From: Verrucomicrobium sp. GAS474
GTDB taxonomy: Bacteria > Verrucomicrobiota > Verrucomicrobiia > Methylacidiphilales > GAS474
Reading direction: 5' to 3'
Length of the DNA: 64,000 bases
NCBI RefSeq assembly: GCF_900105685.1
Contig: NZ_LT629781.1
Span: 620,001 to 684,000 of the forward strand
The notes under the pieces are model-generated. The model was not told the origin of the DNA, did not search any database, and worked only from the letters and a program-made list of their open reading frames with translations. Both the position numbers and the translations under genes were made by a program. This document shows, in pieces, positions 1,603-53,043 of this stretch. Every line of letters begins with the position of its first letter. The stretch's first letter is position 1.

Positions 1603-3243
1603 ATGCCCGACACGCCCTCCGCCCTCCCCCGGCCCGTCGTCCTCGTCGTCGACGACGACGAGCCGACGCTCCTCCTCTTTTCCCGCAACCTGACGAAGAT
1701 CGGGTGCGAGGCCCATACCGCCGTCGGCGGGCGGGCCGCCCAGCAGTTCATGCAGGAGCGCGGGACCGCGGGCCTCGACTGCGTCATCACCGACTACCGC
1801 ATGCCCGGCGTCAGCGGCCTCGACCTCCTCCAGTGGATCCAGGACCGGGACGACACGCTGGCGACCATCGTCGTCACCGCCGAGGGGGAGAAATCGCTCA
1901 TCGCCGCCAGCCTCCGCGGCGGGGCCGTCGATTTCCTCGAGAAGCCGGTCTCCCGCGAGCAGCTCGGCAAGTCGATCCGCGCCGCGGCGGAGACGACGAC
2001 GGAGCGCCGCCGCGCGCGGTCGAACGAGGAGGCGATCCGCGAGGTCAGCCGCCTCCAGAGCCACCTCCTCGGCCCCGCCTACTCCCCCGAGCAGCACGGG
2101 CGGCCCCCGGCCGAGATCGTCATCCACACGCGGAGCGACGTCGGCGGCGACTTCTCCACCCACATCCCGACCGACGACGGGCGGCACGTCTTCTTCTGCG
2201 GCGACGTCTCCGGGCACGACCTCAAGGCGGGCTTCGTCTCCGCCTACTTCCAGGGCGTCGTCCGCGCCCTCGCCGCCCAGGGGACGCCGATCAAGGAAAT
2301 CGCCCACACCTTCAACGACATGCTGCTCCGCGAGTGGAGCCGCCCGGCCAGCGACGGCATCGGCGTCGGCTTCTCCCTCGCCTGCACCTTCCTCGTCACC
2401 GATCCGAAGCGGCGGGAATACCTCCTCCACAACTACGGCTTCCCCCCCGCCACGTGGAGCGACGCCGCCGGGCGGCTGACCTCGATCGCCGACCTCCGCC
2501 CGCCCCTCGGCTGGTTCGACGCCCTCGACCCGAACGAGACCCGCCTCCCCCTCGACACCCCCGCCGGCGATCCCGCCCTCCACAGCCTCTGCCTCTACAG
2601 CGACGGCCTGGAGGACCTCGCCGAGGCCCTCGACGTCGACCCCCGCTGCCTCCTCCACCGCCTCCTCAACCCGAAGCTCGAGGTCGAGAACAAGGAGCTG
2701 ATCCGCCGGGGCCACGACGACATCCTCATCCTCCGCACCTCCCCCCCCGACATCGCCGATCCCTTCTTCCCTCTCCTCCTGGAGCACCACGCCGGGGACC
2801 GCGCCGCCGACATCGACCTCCTCCAGAAACGGTGGGAACGGAGCCTCGCCCTTGCCCTCGGCACCCTCCCCAAGGGCCGCCTCGGGGACATCCTCCTCTG
2901 CTGCCGGGAAATGGTCCTCAACGCCATGAAACACGGCTCCCAGGGGCGGAAGGAGAGCCTCAGCTCCCTCCACATCGCCTGGCAGCCCCGGCCCCCCGCC
3001 GCCGCTTCCGGCGCGGCCTCCGCCCCCCTCTCCCCCGCCCGCGAGGGGGGCCGCCTCCGCCTCCGGGTGGAGGACACCGGTGCCGGCCACAACTTCGACA
3101 TCCACCGCCGCATCGAAGAGCTTGATCAATTGCGGGAAAAGCATCTAGGCTTGAGCATGGTCCGCCTTTTGTGCGACCGAATGACCATGGAACGCCAGGG
3201 GGCTATCCTCATCCTCGACTTCGACATCGACCCCACACCCTGA
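1603..3243 (+). CDS. Receiver - PP2C phosphatase - ATPase fusion (RsbU/RsbW type)
   Basis: 546 residues in three parts. Residues ~10-130 are a response-regulator receiver with an acidic DDDE cluster and the phospho-acceptor Asp in ITDYRMPG near 63. Residues ~165-385 are a PP2C/SpoIIE phosphatase with GGDFS and FCGDVSGHD metal-binding motifs. Residues ~405-545 resemble a GHKL ATPase, with MVLNAMKHG (N box) and VEDTGAGHN (G1 box). By family logic a phosphorylated receiver would drive dephosphorylation of an anti-sigma-factor antagonist, and the ATPase domain could be the opposing kinase. The STAS protein starting 1 bp after the stop is the obvious substrate. Phosphatase and kinase-like domains in one chain are less common than separate RsbU and RsbW. 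Confidence 0.9.
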   Translation: MPDTPSALPRPVVLVVDDDEPTLLLFSRNLTKIGCEAHTAVGGRAAQQFMQERGTAGLDCVITDYRMPGVSGLDLLQWIQDRDDTLATIVVTAEGEKSLIAASLRGGAVDFLEKPVSREQLGKSIRAAAETTTERRRARSNEEAIREVSRLQSHLLGPAYSPEQHGRPPAEIVIHTRSDVGGDFSTHIPTDDGRHVFFCGDVSGHDLKAGFVSAYFQGVVRALAAQGTPIKEIAHTFNDMLLREWSRPASDGIGVGFSLACTFLVTDPKRREYLLHNYGFPPATWSDAAGRLTSIADLRPPLGWFDALDPNETRLPLDTPAGDPALHSLCLYSDGLEDLAEALDVDPRCLLHRLLNPKLEVENKELIRRGHDDILILRTSPPDIADPFFPLLLEHHAGDRAADIDLLQKRWERSLALALGTLPKGRLGDILLCCREMVLNAMKHGSQGRKESLSSLHIAWQPRPPAAASGAASAPLSPAREGGRLRLRVEDTGAGHNFDIHRRIEELDQLREKHLGLSMVRLLCDRMTMERQGAILILDFDIDPTP

Positions 3244-5998: not shown

Positions 5999-6015
5999 GT
6001 CCTCTTCCTTGCGCC

Positions 6016-6049
6016 AAAAACCCCCGGCTCTTCGGAGCCGGGGGTTTTT
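6016..6049 (+). terminator. Rho-independent terminator after acsA
   Basis: AAAAACCCCCGGCTC, loop TTCG, GAGCCGGGGGTTTTT: a perfect GC-rich stem with a T run, 17 bp after the acsA stop. The A run on the other side makes it potentially active in both directions, but no minus-strand gene ends here. Confidence 0.95.
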
Positions 6050-6147
6050 GTGCCGCGAGAGGGGCTCCCTTTTTCCCCAAGCCCCCCCTTGAGTCCCCCC
6101 CAGGTTCTGATACAGTCACTCCCCGTTGCCGCTTCGTCGGCGACACC

Positions 6148-45771: not shown

Positions 45772-47811
45772 ATGAATGATCCCCGCATTGATGCACTCCG
45801 CGACGAACAGCACCGGCTCCGCCTCCAGGTCGACACCCTCGGGATGCGGATCGAGTCCCTGGCCCGGGAACGCGCGGAGGAAGGGGAGCCGATCGCCGCC
45901 TCCTATGAGGCTGTTCCGGTTCTTCCCCCGGCTCCTGCCTTTACCGACGCGCCCACGCCGACACCCCAGCCTGCACCGAAAGAAAGCGATCCGTTCGAGC
46001 TCCACCTCGGCCGGGTCTGGCTCGTCCGGATCGGGATCGGGATGTTGCTGACCGGCCTCGTCTTCCTGGCGAGCTTCACCTACCAGCATCTCGTCGCCTA
46101 CGTCACCCCGCTGGGCCGGGCGGCGGCGCTCTTCGCGGCGAGCCTCGCGCTCGGCGGCCTCGGGCTCTGGCTCGAGAAGAGCCGGGAGACCCTCCGCTAT
46201 TACGGGCGGGTCTTGGCGGCGGGGGGCCTCGCGGGCGGCTACTACGCGCTCTACGCCTCCCATTACGTGACCGAACTCCGCTGGATCGAGGGCGGCCTCG
46301 CCTCGAACCTCGTGCTCCTCGCCTGGGCCGCCGTCATCATCGGCGTCGCCTGCTGGCGGCGGGCGGAGACGCTCGGCGTCGCGGCGGTCGCCCTCGCCTA
46401 CTACACCTCGTTCCTCGGGCCCGACCCCGCCTACACCCACGTCTCCAACCTCATCCTGAGCGGCGCGGCGATCTTCCTCACCCTCCGCTACGGCTGGAAG
46501 TCGGCCTCCTACGCCGCCCTCGCGGGGACGTACAGCCTCCATGCGATTGCCCTGGCCTCGGCGGGATCGGGCCACGCGACGGGCGATCTCCTCTTTCTCT
46601 CCGGCGACTGGCTCGTCTTCACCCTCGGCCTCCTCTCCCCGTGGCCCCGGATGGCGGCCTGGGGAGCGGCGGAGCGCCTCACGTTCCTGACGTTGAACAA
46701 CGCCCTCTTCCTCCTCCTCGGCGCCCTGACGCTGCCGGGGAGCGGAAGCGCCTCGTTCGACGCCGCCTTTCCGCCCTTCGCCATCGGCTTCGGCCTCCTC
46801 CTTGCCGCCACCGCCTTCCTCTCCCGCGCCCTCCGCCCCGGCGAGGCGGCGCAGGAAACGGCCTTCTTCATCCAGGGCCTCCTCGTCGCCACCCTCGGCT
46901 GGATCAGCCGCTGGCACGGGACCGACGGCGCGCTGCTCCTCGGCATCGAGGGGGCGCTCCTCCTCTCCGGTTCCGTCTGGCGCTATCACGCCCCGCTCCG
47001 CGCCCTCTCCCACCTCGCGGCCCTCGCCGCTTTCTTCTGGGCCGCGATCGGATGGGCGCTCGATCTCGCGCCCTCGGACACCACGCCGCTCCTCCTCATG
47101 GCCCTCTTCGCCGGGGAGGCCGGGTGCCTCGCCCGGCTCCGCAAGGAGGCGGAGGAAGACGACTGGGGCGCGGCCCACTTCGCCGTCCTCGCCGCGTTCC
47201 TCTACCTGTTCTGGATCTGGAAGCGGGTTCCCGTCGACCACCAGTTCTGGGTCCTCGCCGCCAGCGGCGCGGCGGTCTACGCCTTCCAGTTCGGACGGCC
47301 CGCCCGCTTCGTGAACTGGGTGGCGATGGTCTTCTGGGGCCTCGCCGCCGCCCTCTTCGTCTTCGTCTACGGCGAAGCGGAGCGGACCTTCTGGGCGAAC
47401 GGCCTCGCGCTGGCCGCCCTCTTCGCCCTGGAGCAGGCGGCGATCCGCCGCGTGCCTTCCGCCTTCCTTTCCCGCGAGGGGCAGGGCCTCTGGCTCTCCC
47501 TCGCGTTGGCGGGCGGCGCGCTCTTCCTCGGCGACGTGGCCGACCTGCGCCAGCCCGAGTGGTCGATGACCCTCGTCTGGGCCGGGATCGCCGGGACCTA
47601 CTTCGCCCTCGGCCTCCTCTGCCGGGAGCGCCTCGCCCGCTGGGCGGGCCTCGTCCTCCTCGCCCTCGCCCTGGGCCGGGTCCTCTGCGTCGATGTCTGG
47701 GAACTCGGCACCCTCAGCCGCATCCTCACCTTCCTCGGCCTCGGCGGACTCCTCCTCGCCCTCGGCTTCGTCTACAACCGCTATCAGGAGACGTTCCGGA
47801 AATGGCTCTAA
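45772..47811 (+). CDS. DUF2339 polytopic membrane protein
   Basis: 679 residues. A soluble N-terminus with a helical segment (RIDALRDEQHRLRLQVDTLG) and a Pro-rich linker leads to a membrane part with about 20 or more helices from ~85 to the end. FELHLGRVWLVRIGIGMLL and VLAAGGLAGGYYALYASHYV are typical of DUF2339. The family has no proven function; it has been suggested to act in the envelope. It is divergent from a LysR regulator. Confidence 0.9.
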   Translation: MNDPRIDALRDEQHRLRLQVDTLGMRIESLARERAEEGEPIAASYEAVPVLPPAPAFTDAPTPTPQPAPKESDPFELHLGRVWLVRIGIGMLLTGLVFLASFTYQHLVAYVTPLGRAAALFAASLALGGLGLWLEKSRETLRYYGRVLAAGGLAGGYYALYASHYVTELRWIEGGLASNLVLLAWAAVIIGVACWRRAETLGVAAVALAYYTSFLGPDPAYTHVSNLILSGAAIFLTLRYGWKSASYAALAGTYSLHAIALASAGSGHATGDLLFLSGDWLVFTLGLLSPWPRMAAWGAAERLTFLTLNNALFLLLGALTLPGSGSASFDAAFPPFAIGFGLLLAATAFLSRALRPGEAAQETAFFIQGLLVATLGWISRWHGTDGALLLGIEGALLLSGSVWRYHAPLRALSHLAALAAFFWAAIGWALDLAPSDTTPLLLMALFAGEAGCLARLRKEAEEDDWGAAHFAVLAAFLYLFWIWKRVPVDHQFWVLAASGAAVYAFQFGRPARFVNWVAMVFWGLAAALFVFVYGEAERTFWANGLALAALFALEQAAIRRVPSAFLSREGQGLWLSLALAGGALFLGDVADLRQPEWSMTLVWAGIAGTYFALGLLCRERLARWAGLVLLALALGRVLCVDVWELGTLSRILTFLGLGGLLLALGFVYNRYQETFRKWL

Positions 47812-47857
47812 AAGGGAGGTTCCCAAACCCTTTTTTACACATTTTCATCACATAACC

Positions 47858-47881
47858 GGGAGATTTTGTTTTGCGTAATTC
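47858..47881 (+). promoter_or_regulatory. Upstream motif shared by both HDOD genes
   Basis: The sequence GGGAGATTTTGTTTTGCG followed by TAATTC is matched upstream of the second HDOD gene by GGGAGTTAATGTTTTGCG plus AATTC at 51971-51993. Conservation outside the coding region points to a shared promoter or regulator site. No known binding motif is recognised. Confidence 0.65.
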
Positions 47882-47922
47882 GTTGTGAAAGATTGACTTG
47901 CAAACAAATCGGAACCCTCCAT

Positions 47923-47948
47923 CTTTTCCTCCTCGAAAGGAGGAAAAG
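47923..47948 (+). promoter_or_regulatory. Hairpin burying the Shine-Dalgarno sequence of HDOD gene 1
   Basis: CTTTTCCTCC pairs perfectly with GGAGGAAAAG around the loop TCGAAA. The ribosome site GGAGG (47939-47943) lies inside the stem, 8 bp before the ATG at 47952. Translation should therefore need the hairpin to open, for example by temperature, a protein or a small RNA. The second HDOD gene has no equal hairpin. Confidence 0.75.
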
Positions 47949-47951
47949 ACC

Positions 47952-48941
47952 ATGCGCCCCACCCCGAATTCAGCGAATCCGACGAACCCGAAAAACCTGG
48001 AAAAGACGGCCGAGATCCGTCGGCGGCTCTACCCGCAAGGACAGGGCGCGGTCGAGACCGACCTCGAGGCGCGCCTCCTCCGCTTCATCGAGAGGGAGGG
48101 CGATGTCCTCCCCGCCGCCGAGTCGGCCCTCGGCCAGCTCGGCCGCCAGCTTTACCGGGACGAGGTCGCCCTCGACCGCTGCATCGACATCATCGCGACC
48201 GACGCCTCCCTCACCCACCTCGTCCTCCGCGCGGCGAACATCGCCGCCCTCGGCAGCCGCAAGTTCACGATCCCCTACGCCGTGATGTTCCTCGGCCTCG
48301 CCCGCCTCCGCGTCCTCTTCGGCGTCGAGGTCCTCCGCCGGATGAACGGGGACCGCCTCTCCGCCGATTGGGTCCCGTTCTGGGAACGGAGCCTCTTCTC
48401 GGCCCGCCTCCTCGAGCGGCTCGCCTCCTACTACCATCCGATCGACGGGACCGAGTATCTGGCCGGCCTCCTCCACGACGCCTCGTGGCCGACGGTCGTC
48501 ACCTTCTTCCGCAAGGAATACTCGATCTTCTTCGACCGCGCCGACGCCCTCTTCCCGCTGGAGAAGACCCTCTTCGGCACCTCCCACGCGGCGATCTCCG
48601 CCGCGATGTGCGTCCGCTCCGGCCTCCCCGTCCACGTCGTCGAGGCCATCGCCCGGCATCACGACGCGGCCCTGCCCGAGAGGGCGACGATCACGAACCT
48701 CCGCTACAACGGCCCCTTCCTCGGCGTCCTCCTCCAGCTCACCGACGACATCGCCGACGCCTGCGGCTTCCCCTCCGACCGCCCCGCCGGGAGCGACGAC
48801 GGGAAGACGATGGACGACGTCCTCGCCTCCCCCCGGGTCGCCTGGATCAACGCCTTCGGCTGGCATCCCGACCTGAACACGATGGCCCAGGACGAGCTCC
48901 TCCAGGTCCGCAAGGTCGGCCTCCTCCTCCAGGCGTCCTAG
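47952..48941 (+). CDS. HDOD-domain signalling protein 1
   Basis: 329 residues, one HDOD domain (HD-related output domain). THLVLRAANIAALGSRKFTI, PYAVMFLGLARLRVLFG, YLAGLLHDASWPTVV and IARHHDAAL are the conserved blocks. Most residues are identical to those of the gene at 52090. HDOD proteins act in signalling and do not normally hydrolyse nucleotides. The N-terminal ~15 residues are Asn/Pro-rich and unlike the second copy. I start at the ATG at 47952 because the Shine-Dalgarno is directly before it. Confidence 0.9.
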   Translation: MRPTPNSANPTNPKNLEKTAEIRRRLYPQGQGAVETDLEARLLRFIEREGDVLPAAESALGQLGRQLYRDEVALDRCIDIIATDASLTHLVLRAANIAALGSRKFTIPYAVMFLGLARLRVLFGVEVLRRMNGDRLSADWVPFWERSLFSARLLERLASYYHPIDGTEYLAGLLHDASWPTVVTFFRKEYSIFFDRADALFPLEKTLFGTSHAAISAAMCVRSGLPVHVVEAIARHHDAALPERATITNLRYNGPFLGVLLQLTDDIADACGFPSDRPAGSDDGKTMDDVLASPRVAWINAFGWHPDLNTMAQDELLQVRKVGLLLQAS

Positions 48942-49035: not shown

Positions 49036-50601
49036 ATGTCCCTCTCGTCCGCCTCCCCCACGCTGGAAGAATTGAAAGCCGCCGCCGCGGTCCTCGAAAA
49101 GGCGGCGGCGAACCGCGCCGTGCTGAGCCAGCTTTCCGACGAGGAACGGAACCGGTTCCTCCAGGCGGCGGGCGACGTCTTCTGCCCCGACGTCGGCGAG
49201 CGGCGGCAGCTGGTCCGGGCGAAGGCCCGCCAGCGCAAGGCGGAGAAGATCGAGCGCGACCAGTCGAAGCTCCACCAGACCGGCATCCGCAAGCTCCGCC
49301 GCGAGGCCGTCTTCGTCACCCCCAATGTCTACCCCCCCCTCGCCTTCGAGCAGCACGAGGTGACCGGCGATCCGGCGCTCGAATTCCGCGAAGTCGTCGA
49401 GCCGCAGAACTGCTACATCTGCAAGAAGGACTACTCGACCCTCCACCATTTCTACGACCAGCTCTGCCCCGCGTGCGCCGAGCTGAACTGGCTGAAGCGG
49501 ACCGAGAGCGCCGACCTCCGGGGCCGCGTCGCCCTCCTCACCGGGGGCCGGGTGAAGATCGGCTACCAGGCCGGGATCAAGCTCCTCCGCGCCGGGGTCC
49601 ACCTCGTCGTCACCACCCGCTTCCCGCGCGACTCGGCGGTCCGCTACGCCGCGGAGCCCGACTTCGCCGAATGGGGCCACCGGCTCGAGATCATCGGCCT
49701 CGACCTCCGCCACACGCCGAGCGTCGAGGCCTTCTGCCGCCACATGACGGCGAACCACGCGCGCCTCGACTTCATCGTCAACAACGCCTGCCAGACCGTC
49801 CGCCGCCCGCCCGACTTCTACGAGCACATGATGGCCCGGGAGAACGGCCCCCTCCACGACCTCCCCGAGGCGACCCGCAAGCTCCTCGGCACCTACGAGG
49901 GATTGCGCGGCTACCACATGCTTCCCGAAGGCCAGGGAGCCGCCGGAACCGTCGGAGCGGGGACGTCCTCCCCCGCCTCCTCGCCCCTCGCGGGGATCAC
50001 CCACGCGGCGGCCCTCTCCCAGGTCTCGCTCCTGCCGGAGGAACTCGCCGCGCAGAAGGACCTCTTCCCCCAGGGCCGCCTCGACCAGGACCTCCAGCAG
50101 GTCGACCTCCGGGAAAAGAACTCGTGGCGGCTCATGATGGCCGAGGTCCCCTCGGTCGAGCTCCTCGAGGTGCAGCTCATCAACGCCATCGCCCCCTTCA
50201 TCCTCAACGCCCGGCTGAAGCCGCTGATGCTCCGCACCCCGGGCCGGGACAAGCACATCGTCAACGTCTCCGCCGTCGAGGGGCAGTTCTACCGGAAGTT
50301 CAAGACCACCCGCCATCCCCACACCAACATGGCGAAGGCGGCCCTGAACATGATGACCCGCACCGCCGCCGCCGATTACCACGCCGACGGCATCCACATG
50401 AACGCCGTCGACACCGGCTGGGTGACCGACGAGGACCCCGTCCAGATCGCCGAGCGGAAGACCCAGGAACACCGCTTCCACCCTCCCCTCGACATCGTCG
50501 ACGGCGCGGCCCGGATCGTCGACCCGATCATCGACGGGATCAACACCGGCACCCACATCTGGGGCAAGTTCCTGAAGGATTATCGGTCGACCGATTGGTA
50601 A
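49036..50601 (+). CDS. SDR-family protein with a zinc ribbon
   Basis: 521 residues. A helical N-terminus (to ~115) is followed by a zinc-ribbon-like CYICKKDYS ... CPACAELN (~135-160), then an SDR Rossmann fold: [30 protein letters not shown] and [13 protein letters not shown]. The catalytic Tyr of the YxxxK motif is replaced: [13 protein letters not shown] has Thr at that position while the Lys is kept. Activity as a normal dehydrogenase is doubtful. The insertion from ~300 to 370 is long and Gln/Leu-rich. The 3' end of the gene is duplicated at 51871-51940. Confidence 0.82.
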
Positions 50602-50607
50602 ACGGCC
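50538..50607 (+). repeat. 70-bp direct repeat, left copy (3' end of the SDR gene)
   Basis: Covers the last 21 codons, the stop and 6 bp more of the SDR gene. The right copy at 51871-51940 has a single difference (TTAT versus TTAC). Together they bracket the low-GC acyltransferase gene. Weaker similarity continues leftward at the right copy (ATCGTCGA then CCG), showing that it derives from this gene. Confidence 0.93.
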
Positions 50608-50611
50608 GAAG

Positions 50612-51766
50612 CTATATTTCAGGCGGTGGGGGGAACTGAAACGGGACAGGCGGGCACAGCGACCTTTTTGCTGCATTCAAAATCGGCAGGGAATAATAGC
50701 GATAGACCAGGACGGCCAACCCCAAGCTGCCGAAACCCGGGATGACGCTGTAAATTAAAAAGCGGAACACACTGCTGGAGGCATGACCTGCATAAGAGAA
50801 AATGGTGTGCAGCAAATACCATTCGTAGCTGACCACCCCCAAGCCGACCATCGTCCAGGAATTCAAAAAAGCATGCCAAGGACGCCCTGAACCGAGAGAG
50901 GAAAAAAGAAGGAAAAAGCACGATAGGCCGATGGCCGGAGGGAACCAAAATGAGGTGGTGTAAGCCTTGATCACAGACTCATACTTCTCGACCTCGACAG
51001 CGAGGCCGGCATATCCAAAGCCCACAATAAGAGCGGAAAGTCCGGCGACACCGATGCAAAAAAGAAGGTCGGCATGCTTCTTGAGCGTCTTTGAGGGAAC
51101 CGAAAGATCAAGATAGGCGAAAGCGATTCCCCAGGCGAAGTATTGAAAGAAGGAGAGAGTTCCCAGCCATGAGCCGCTTGGCAGGGAAAATTTCAGGGAG
51201 AGGATTTTTACGGCGGGAGCAAAAAGCCAGAATCCGAGGAGGAGCGCCGAGACGGTTTGCGCGACGGTCAGCCTGCGACATAGAAAAAAGGCGAGGGGAA
51301 GCAAAAGATAGAACCAAGCCTCGACACCGAGCGTCCAAAGAACGGCGAGGAGCGGGTTTTCAGTCGGGGCTATCGTGTAATAGAAAAAGGCTTCCTGGGA
51401 GATGCGACGAAACAGATCGCCTCCATTTCCCATGAGACAGGCCGAGGCGGCCGCCAACGCGATCGCCAGATAGCAGGGAGGAATGATTTTGAAAACGCGC
51501 CGCACGGCATAGCCTTTCAGCCCTACCGAGCGCCCTTCGATCTTCGCCTTGAGAAAGGGCCGGCTGATCAGCAGGCCGGACAGTACGAAGAAGATATCGA
51601 CTCCCATCCATCCGCTCCGAAGCAAGAGAGCGGGAGCGAAGAGGACCCCATGCGTGCAGCTCCGAAAGGCGAGAAGATGATTAAAGACCACCAGGAGAAT
51701 CGCCACACCCCGAAGGCCGTCCACGGAACGGTAATGGGAGTCGGCGCGGAGAGTGGAAGGGGTCAT
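50612..51766 (-). CDS. Acyltransferase-3 family membrane protein (OafA/YrhL type)
   Basis: 384 residues from the ATG at 51766, with about ten membrane helices. The signature start SVDGLRGVAILLVVFNH, then FFVLSGLLISRPFLKAK and the central FYYTIAPTENPLLAVLWTLG identify acyltransferase-3 (inner-membrane transfer of acetyl or other acyl groups to cell-surface sugars). Base composition is clearly lower in GC than in all neighbours and codon use differs, so recent horizontal gain is likely. It converges with the SDR gene, stopping 10 bp from it. Acceptor unknown. Confidence 0.9.
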   Translation of the reverse strand: MTPSTLRADSHYRSVDGLRGVAILLVVFNHLLAFRSCTHGVLFAPALLLRSGWMGVDIFFVLSGLLISRPFLKAKIEGRSVGLKGYAVRRVFKIIPPCYLAIALAAASACLMGNGGDLFRRISQEAFFYYTIAPTENPLLAVLWTLGVEAWFYLLLPLAFFLCRRLTVAQTVSALLLGFWLFAPAVKILSLKFSLPSGSWLGTLSFFQYFAWGIAFAYLDLSVPSKTLKKHADLLFCIGVAGLSALIVGFGYAGLAVEVEKYESVIKAYTTSFWFPPAIGLSCFFLLFSSLGSGRPWHAFLNSWTMVGLGVVSYEWYLLHTIFSYAGHASSSVFRFLIYSVIPGFGSLGLAVLVYRYYSLPILNAAKRSLCPPVPFQFPPPPEI

Positions 51767-51870
51767 TATGGGTGCCTCTTTTATACATAAGCTAAAAGAG
51801 CCTTGAATATATAAAATCCGTAAACCTAGCTCGAATGGATCCGGGAAATCCGAAATCGTCGATCCGTCAA

Positions 51871-51940
51871 GATCAACACCGGCACCCACATCTGGGGCAA
51901 GTTCCTGAAGGATTACCGGTCGACCGATTGGTAAACGGCC
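51871..51940 (+). repeat. 70-bp direct repeat, right copy
   Basis: Second copy of the SDR gene end (starts GATCAACACCGGCACCCACA, ends GGTAAACGGCC). It lies upstream of HDOD gene 2 and has no start codon or upstream coding part, so it is a relict. The stretch 51767-51870 is AT-rich with TATATAAAATCC. The rest of the 323-bp gap up to 52089 holds the shared motif and leader of HDOD 2. Confidence 0.93.
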
Positions 51941-51970: not shown

Positions 51971-52089
51971 GGGAGTTAATGTTTTGCGAATTCCATCGAC
52001 GTAGGTTACCGTTATAAGCGGATCATGAGGGTCCGCGCGGCGCAGGGAGGGATTTCCCGGGATGCCGCAGCCACCCATAAGGAGGACCC
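51971..52089 (+). promoter_or_regulatory. Upstream region and leader of HDOD gene 2
   Basis: Starts with the motif shared with HDOD gene 1 (GGGAG...TGTTTTGCG). A TATAAG box lies at 52012. Near the gene, GGGTCC (52029-52034) can pair with GGACCC (52084-52089) right before the ATG, and GGGA/TCCC lies between. The ribosome site AAGGAGG is only partly covered. So a structured leader is likely here too, but weaker than at gene 1. Confidence 0.5.
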
Positions 52090-53043
52090 ATGAGCACCAT
52101 CACCCTAGAACAGGCCGCCACGATCCAGAACCGTCTCTTCCCCGACGGAGCGGTTCCCAACGATCTCGAACAGCGCCTTCTCCGCTTCGTCCAGACGGAA
52201 GGCGATGTCCTTCCCGCCGCCGACTCGGCCCTCAGTAATCTGGGCCGCCAGCTTTACCGCGACGACGTCTCCCTCGACCGCTGCAACGACATCATCTCGA
52301 CCGACGCGGCCCTCACCCACCTCGTCCTCCGGGCCGCGAACATCGCCGCCCTCGGCAGCCGCCACTTCACGATCCCCTACGCCGTGATGTTCCTCGGCCT
52401 CGCCCGCCTCCGCGTCCTCTTCGGCGTCGAGGTCCTCCGCCGGATGAACGCGAACCGACTCGGCGGGGACTGGATCCCGTTCTGGGAGCGGAACCTCTTC
52501 GTCGCCCGGATGGTCGAGCGGCTCGCCTCCTACTACCATCCCGTCGACGGGACCGAATACCTCGCCGGCCTCCTCCACGACGCCTCGTGGCCGACGGTCG
52601 TCACCTTCTTCAAGCGGGAATACGGAGTCTTCTTCGACCAGTCGGACGCCCTCTTCCCGCTCGAAAAGGAGGTCTTCGGCACTACCCATGCGGCGATCTC
52701 CGCCGCCATGTGCGTCCGCTCCGGCCTCCCGCCCCACGTCGTCGATGCCGTCGCCCGGCACCACGACGCGACCCTCCCGGACAAGACCAAAATCACGAAC
52801 CTCCGCTACAACGGCCCCTTCCTCGGCGTCCTCCTCCAGCTCACCGACGAGATCGCCGACGCCTGCGGCTTCCCCTCGGCCACCGACCGCGTCGGCGGCA
52901 ACCGGAAGATGGAGGACGTCCTCCACTCCCCGCGCGCGATCTGGATCGCCTCCTTCGGCCGCCATCCCGAGCTCAACGCCATCGCGCAGGAGGAGCTCCA
53001 GCAGGTCCGCCGCGTCGGGCAGCTCTTCCAGGCGGGGGAATAA
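52090..53043 (+). CDS. HDOD-domain signalling protein 2
   Basis: 317 residues, paralogue of the gene at 47952: the same HDOD blocks (THLVLRAANIAALGSRHFTI, YLAGLLHDASWPTVV, VARHHDATLP) and same C-terminal region to QVRRVGQLFQ. Differences cluster at the N-terminus and at the ~GFPS loop. Shine-Dalgarno AAGGAGG lies directly before the ATG. The two copies probably answer to related signals. Confidence 0.92.
   Translation: MSTITLEQAATIQNRLFPDGAVPNDLEQRLLRFVQTEGDVLPAADSALSNLGRQLYRDDVSLDRCNDIISTDAALTHLVLRAANIAALGSRHFTIPYAVMFLGLARLRVLFGVEVLRRMNANRLGGDWIPFWERNLFVARMVERLASYYHPVDGTEYLAGLLHDASWPTVVTFFKREYGVFFDQSDALFPLEKEVFGTTHAAISAAMCVRSGLPPHVVDAVARHHDATLPDKTKITNLRYNGPFLGVLLQLTDEIADACGFPSATDRVGGNRKMEDVLHSPRAIWIASFGRHPELNAIAQEELQQVRRVGQLFQAGE

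Follow-up and report, generated by a model that had tools for sequence, protein, structure and literature searches.

In a genome in which two paralogous HDOD-domain genes lie only a few kilobases apart, one of them, HDOD1, carries its Shine-Dalgarno (SD) sequence inside a perfect inverted repeat immediately ahead of its start codon, and the locus raises the question of what such a stem does to the translation of the gene behind it. The original prediction was that translation of HDOD1 is conditional (for example, through an RNA thermometer, a protein or a small RNA). We examined this prediction computationally in the window (the whole stretch of 64,000 nucleotides analysed, corresponding to positions 620001-684000 of a 3.76-Mb genome in a single contig), in a larger sample of the same genome and in other genomes.

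Structure of the HDOD1 leader

The elements of the locus, in window coordinates, are as follows.

47810-47836, plus strand: terminator-like AAAAGGG...CCCTTTTTT, 3' of the upstream DUF2339 gene (by eye)
47867-47881, plus strand: TGTTTTGCGTAATTC, upstream element in common with HDOD2, possibly a promoter or operator (genome pattern search, local alignment)
47922-47933, plus strand: 5' stem arm, TCTTTTCCTCCT, which mimics the anti-SD (sequence, perfect stem search, fold)
47934-47937, plus strand: CGAA loop, the GAA of which lengthens the match to the 16S tail (sequence, fold, 16S comparison)
47935-47943, plus strand: SD sequence, GAAAGGAGG, 9 nt complementary to the organism's own 16S 3' tail (duplex -15.8 kcal/mol)
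47938-47949, plus strand: 3' arm of the stem, AGGAGGAAAAGA, containing the SD core (sequence, fold, perfect stem search)
47952-48941, plus strand: HDOD1 coding sequence, 329 amino acids, ATG start (open reading frame; PF08668, E 2.5e-22)
51980-51993, plus strand: TGTTTTGCGAATTC, the same upstream element 5' of HDOD2 (genome pattern search, local alignment)
52090-53043, plus strand: HDOD2, paralogue with an open SD, 76% amino acid identity (open reading frame, Pfam, comparison)

The hairpin originally described, CTTTTCCTCC-TCGAAA-GGAGGAAAAG (47923-47948, a single occurrence in the window even when up to three mismatches are allowed), was a perfect stem of 10 bp ending 3 bp before the ATG; it is present and had been slightly understated. 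One extra pair forms at either end, giving 12 perfect pairs around a 4-nt CGAA loop (47922-47949, by perfect stem search and by folding), and the spacing of 3 is true of the 10-bp stem, whereas the full stem is followed by CC and then the ATG (47952-47954), a gap of 2 nt. The SD core (GGAGG) lies entirely within the 3' arm, and its pairing in a local stem so near the start codon is the arrangement of SD-occluding translational hairpins. The fold of positions 47895-47990 has a z score of -3.07 (0 of 200 shuffled sequences were equally stable). For the stem, the predicted energy goes from -20.4 kcal/mol at 25°C through -16.9 at 37°C to -10.1 at 60°C. The predicted probability of the stem is approximately 0.97 under each of 10 assumed mRNA 5' ends, and folding from these 10 ends revealed no competing structure.

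Other readings of the repeat were considered and set aside. A terminator was rejected, given that a T-run after the stem is absent on both strands and that the terminator scan reports none there. Starts further upstream, at TTG codons in frame (47898) and in another frame (47866), which would take ribosomes through the stem, are not favoured, with no SD visible by eye at either; the 100 bases upstream of the HDOD1 ATG have a G+C content of 42%. Owing to its symmetry, the element gives the minus strand an SD and an ATG as well (AGGAGGAAAAG-ATG, the ATG at 47922-47920), and this ATG opens a frame of 24 amino acids ending in the intergenic region; this frame has no Pfam match, and the antisense reading is probably a by-product of the palindrome.

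Upstream of the leader, a terminator-like element follows the DUF2339 gene, and HDOD1 therefore probably has its own transcript. The automated terminator scan did not report this element (its 11-nt loop is outside the scan range), and the promoter scan found no sigma-70-like promoter for HDOD1. The sequence TGTTTTGCG(T)AATTC occurs upstream of both HDOD genes and at no further place in the genome, by a pattern that was itself derived from those two sites; shuffled sequences aligned equally well in 26 of 2000 cases, which lends modest support to a shared upstream element. Its extended form, GGGAG(A/T)T..TGTTTTGCG(T)AATTC (47859-47881 and approximately 51971-51993), is perhaps a common promoter or operator; the remaining leader sequence differs between the two genes. 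The region between the paralogues also contains a 70-bp direct repeat (50538-50607 and 51871-51940, 69/70 identical) flanking a minus-strand acyltransferase gene (50612-51769). The repeat consists of the 3' end of a short-chain dehydrogenase gene, of which a second copy lies immediately 5' of HDOD2, an arrangement that suggests insertion of the acyltransferase segment between two copies.

HDOD1 and HDOD2 are 84.8% identical in DNA over 880 bp (dN 0.159, dS 0.297; NG86), and the closest homologue that we found, in another genome (G002), has 59.1% and 60.5% identity to HDOD1 and HDOD2, respectively. A contig scan also gave one distant locus (L041, 26% identity), which was left aside. That the paralogue lacks the stem was confirmed: HDOD2 has AAGGAGG and no such hairpin, and neither its leader nor that of the G002 homologue is out of the ordinary. 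The most parsimonious history is that HDOD1 probably gained the hairpin after the duplication, the leaders aligning too poorly for proof. HDOD1 is intact, is evolving no faster than HDOD2 (21 unique changes in HDOD1, 17 in HDOD2) and is not decaying; it is therefore probably expressed. The HDOD domain is described, in a Pseudomonas fluorescens paper (PMC6543031), as HD-GYP-like without phosphodiesterase activity, its mechanistic role not being established.

Rarity of the stem within and beyond the genome

We compared the HDOD1 stem with a 464-kb sample (the window plus 20 stretches of the same genome), in which 287 starts were picked by a home-made seeded gene finder whose seven seeds include HDOD1 and HDOD2. 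An SD match of at least 4 nt was found at 107 of these starts and not at the other 180, and SD use thus looks sparse in this genome, as far as home-made starts can indicate. Occlusion of the SD, as originally proposed, is well supported by this comparison: the cost of freeing the SD at HDOD1 (17.0 kcal/mol) is the highest among the 107 SD-bearing starts (median 3.5), the second highest, 15.3 kcal/mol, belonging to a GTG start that is itself doubtful.

Perfect stems of at least 12 bp with loops of 3-10 nt occur 12 times in the sample, and 10 of them are terminator-like by eye (A/T-run arms), the exceptions being a stem in L063 and that of HDOD1. In first-order Markov sequence matched for composition, five such stems appeared in 5 x 464 kb. 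The sole longer perfect hairpin of the window (6015-6050; 16 bp, TTCG loop, A-run and T-run arms) resembles a bidirectional terminator. When the DNA upstream of the 107 SD-bearing starts was shuffled with the SD held fixed, a stem of at least 12 bp covered the SD in 3 of 214,000 trials, a rate of 1.4e-5 per start, or 0.0015 expected among the 107 sampled starts. Extended to the approximately 870-1250 SD starts per genome (our own extrapolation), the chance expectation is about 0.01-0.02 (0.012-0.018). The stem is thus unusual, yet not beyond chance.

We also searched the genome for further locked SDs, using patterns that fix the SD core, such that locked sites of another form would escape. The pattern CCTCCN{3,10}GGAGGN{4,11}ATG matched 40 places, and among the 30 loci measured no stem exceeded 7 bp except the HDOD1 palindrome, which was matched on both strands. 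CTCCTN{3,10}AGGAGN{4,11}ATG matched 24 places, all measured, and added a 10-bp stem at a start of toxin-antitoxin-like type and an 8-bp stem within a long open frame; TCCTTN{3,10}AAGGAN{4,11}ATG matched three places, with stems of 5 or 6 bp. An earlier, wider locked-SD pattern gave 138 places (54 in the control); among the 100 of these that were listed, those recurring among the 40 above were taken further. The pattern CCTCCTN{3,8}AGGAGG gave 28 sites (24 in the control). On the three own-genome patterns we rejected a regulon of locked SDs, and we likewise rejected a dispersed repeat, for which the only good genome match is at the locus itself. A near-exact stem pattern before an ATG was found in 1 of 190 genomes, the organism's own; since no relative with the hairpin was found among the other 189, and the stem is absent from both G002 and HDOD2, there is neither conservation nor covariation to support it.

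Two side observations came from these searches. The 10-bp stem just mentioned is a second perfect SD hairpin of the genome (-13.4 kcal/mol) and possibly an autoregulatory operator; it lies in L133 at approximately 1497-1522 (genome positions approximately 1898573-1898594), where a Phd/YefM-like gene starts on the minus strand and a PIN-like gene comes next, the Pfam match of each being below cut-off. In addition, CTCCTATTGGGAGA... together with ...GAGAGGAGCG.TTGGA recurs in several intergenic-looking places as a dispersed repeat (L126 and L136, in each with the match near the middle, and L043, approximately 2630-2670, minus strand).

Predicted output and competing explanations

The organism's own 16S gene ends GGATCACCTCCTTTCT, and the HDOD1 SD matches the reference used in the search over 8 nt, more than at any other of the 287 sampled starts. 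We scored starts with a simplified equilibrium model resembling the RBS calculator (E. coli-type parameters and home-made starts, so that only the direction of a difference is to be trusted). By this model HDOD1 scores +3.0 kcal/mol, rank 49 of 287 (median 7.1), and -11.0 kcal/mol when the 5' arm is held unpaired; HDOD2, at -7.4 kcal/mol, ranks first of the 287. The usual slope of the RBS calculator is 0.45 per kcal/mol, and if the model energies were converted in this way then the output of HDOD1 would be roughly 100-fold below that of HDOD2. In the model, therefore, the stem would offset most of an over-strong SD, leaving a start that is middling to good and well below that of HDOD2; the model likewise predicts that, by the standards of its own genome, HDOD1 is not locked, because its SD is exceptionally strong.

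Our preferred explanation, to which we give a little less than an even chance, is that the hairpin is a cis-acting, constitutive translational brake on an over-strong SD. The local 12-bp stem would fold once the leader is transcribed, keeping the SD of HDOD1 closed, and the 30S subunit would initiate only by winning the SD back, aided by the pairing of 9 nt with the 16S tail (-15.8 kcal/mol, against -16.9 for the stem). Output would be low to moderate, mostly independent of temperature and below that of HDOD2, and the brake, having probably arisen in HDOD1 after the duplication, would have let the dosage of the two copies diverge. This account presupposes a transcript that extends over the 5' arm, folding of the stem inside the cell, lower translation as a result, and selection for the stem. 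Against it weigh the absence of the stem from HDOD2, G002 and the other genomes searched, the negative promoter scan, the rank of 49 in the model, by which the brake need not matter, and the genome-wide chance expectation, which is not negligible. If the brake is real, then two intact duplicates with a common upstream DNA element would differ by a brake on the mRNA, a simple route to dosage divergence between duplicated genes.

Of the alternatives, melting upon heating is the least probable: the SD does lie in a stem just 5' of the start codon, as in known thermometers, but the predicted mean unpaired fraction of GGAGG rises from 0.0002 at 37°C to no more than 0.0009 at 60°C (more than 99.9% paired), so that the stem would stay closed far above any plausible growth temperature. 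A thermometer of the ROSE-like, fourU or another class would be expected to melt within the growth range and to pair the SD imperfectly, with mismatches and non-canonical pairs, whereas the HDOD1 stem has 12 perfect pairs and is predicted to be closed at 60°C and above. In the window there were no Rfam matches at the gathering score, and the two chance-level matches in 47800-48100, far under their gathering scores, are not to thermometers. We rejected the thermometer on the predicted melting together with a published effect (PMC3669281) in which perfect SD pairing abolished thermometer activity at both temperatures. A different kind of conditional switch, closed by default and opened by a small RNA, a protein, RNA processing or a standby-bound ribosome with S1, such that HDOD1 would be made only in some state, we consider unlikely, although less so. 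The model predicts a large dynamic range for it (14 kcal/mol between open and closed stem), and the tisB mRNA (PMC7708055) is a precedent in which a distant standby site and S1 give access to a sequestered ribosome site; against it, we found no opener, alternative fold or Rfam family, and the share of the upstream leader that is predicted to be unpaired varies from 0.41 to 1.00 with the assumed 5' end. Very improbable, in our judgement, is opening by the ribosome itself, in which the 30S tail would nucleate on the loop GAA and displace its 5'-arm mimic (CCUCCU). The SD-16S duplex (-15.8 kcal/mol) nearly equals the stem, which allows this reading, but nucleation on a loop of only 4 nt would be sterically tight; if it were true, then output would track how many 30S subunits are free, making HDOD1 a gauge of idle ribosomes.

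The repeat may also be a neutral palindrome, arisen by chance or by one-step template switching in replication and having little or no fitness effect; we hold this, too, to be unlikely, at about the level of the conditional switch. Its presence in a single genome, its absence from HDOD2 and G002, and the chance expectation given above all fit, but the SD-opening cost is the highest in the sample, and some effect is to be expected when the SD of an intact gene is strongly closed. Alternatively, and with distinctly lower probability, the inverted repeat may be a transcription factor site that overlaps the SD incidentally. A perfect inverted repeat immediately 5' of a gene is what such an operator would look like, and the 10-bp SD stem at the Phd-like/PIN pair in L133 (Pfam matches below cut-off) adds some weight; operons of the Phd-like/PIN type are commonly autoregulated at palindromes. 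Against an operator, no regulator can be named, HDOD2 lacks the palindrome, the centre of symmetry is unusually near the start codon and the palindrome is single-copy in the genome (a single site being compatible with an operator). HDOD is not known to be a DNA-binding domain.

Relation to known regulatory hairpins

The HDOD1 leader shares features with several described systems. Like the operator palindromes of autoregulated operons it is a perfect inverted repeat at a gene start, but it comes without a regulator or a second site. With the tisB mRNA it shares a sequestered ribosome site downstream of a leader; tisB needs a single-stranded standby site approximately 100 nt upstream together with 5' structure (PMC7708055), no counterpart of either being known for HDOD1. 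The ROSE-like thermometers of Pseudomonas (PMC3669281) are likewise short leader hairpins with the SD inside and the AUG unpaired; their sensing hairpins, however, have imperfect stems of -4.1 to -7.6 kcal/mol, whereas the HDOD1 stem is perfect, has -16.9 kcal/mol and is predicted not to melt. A perfect SD hairpin should thus not be taken for a thermometer by default. The leader also resembles SD-occluding stem-loops in general, in which the SD is paired in a local stem and output is expected to drop with stability, following the rule of de Smit and van Duin (quoted in PMC3669281 and PMC3936740) that greater stem stability lowers initiation. Occlusion of the SD by a stem is a textbook mechanism, of which HDOD1 would be an unusually perfect and so far solitary case: its stem is far stabler than occlusion would need, and its unusually long SD partly compensates.
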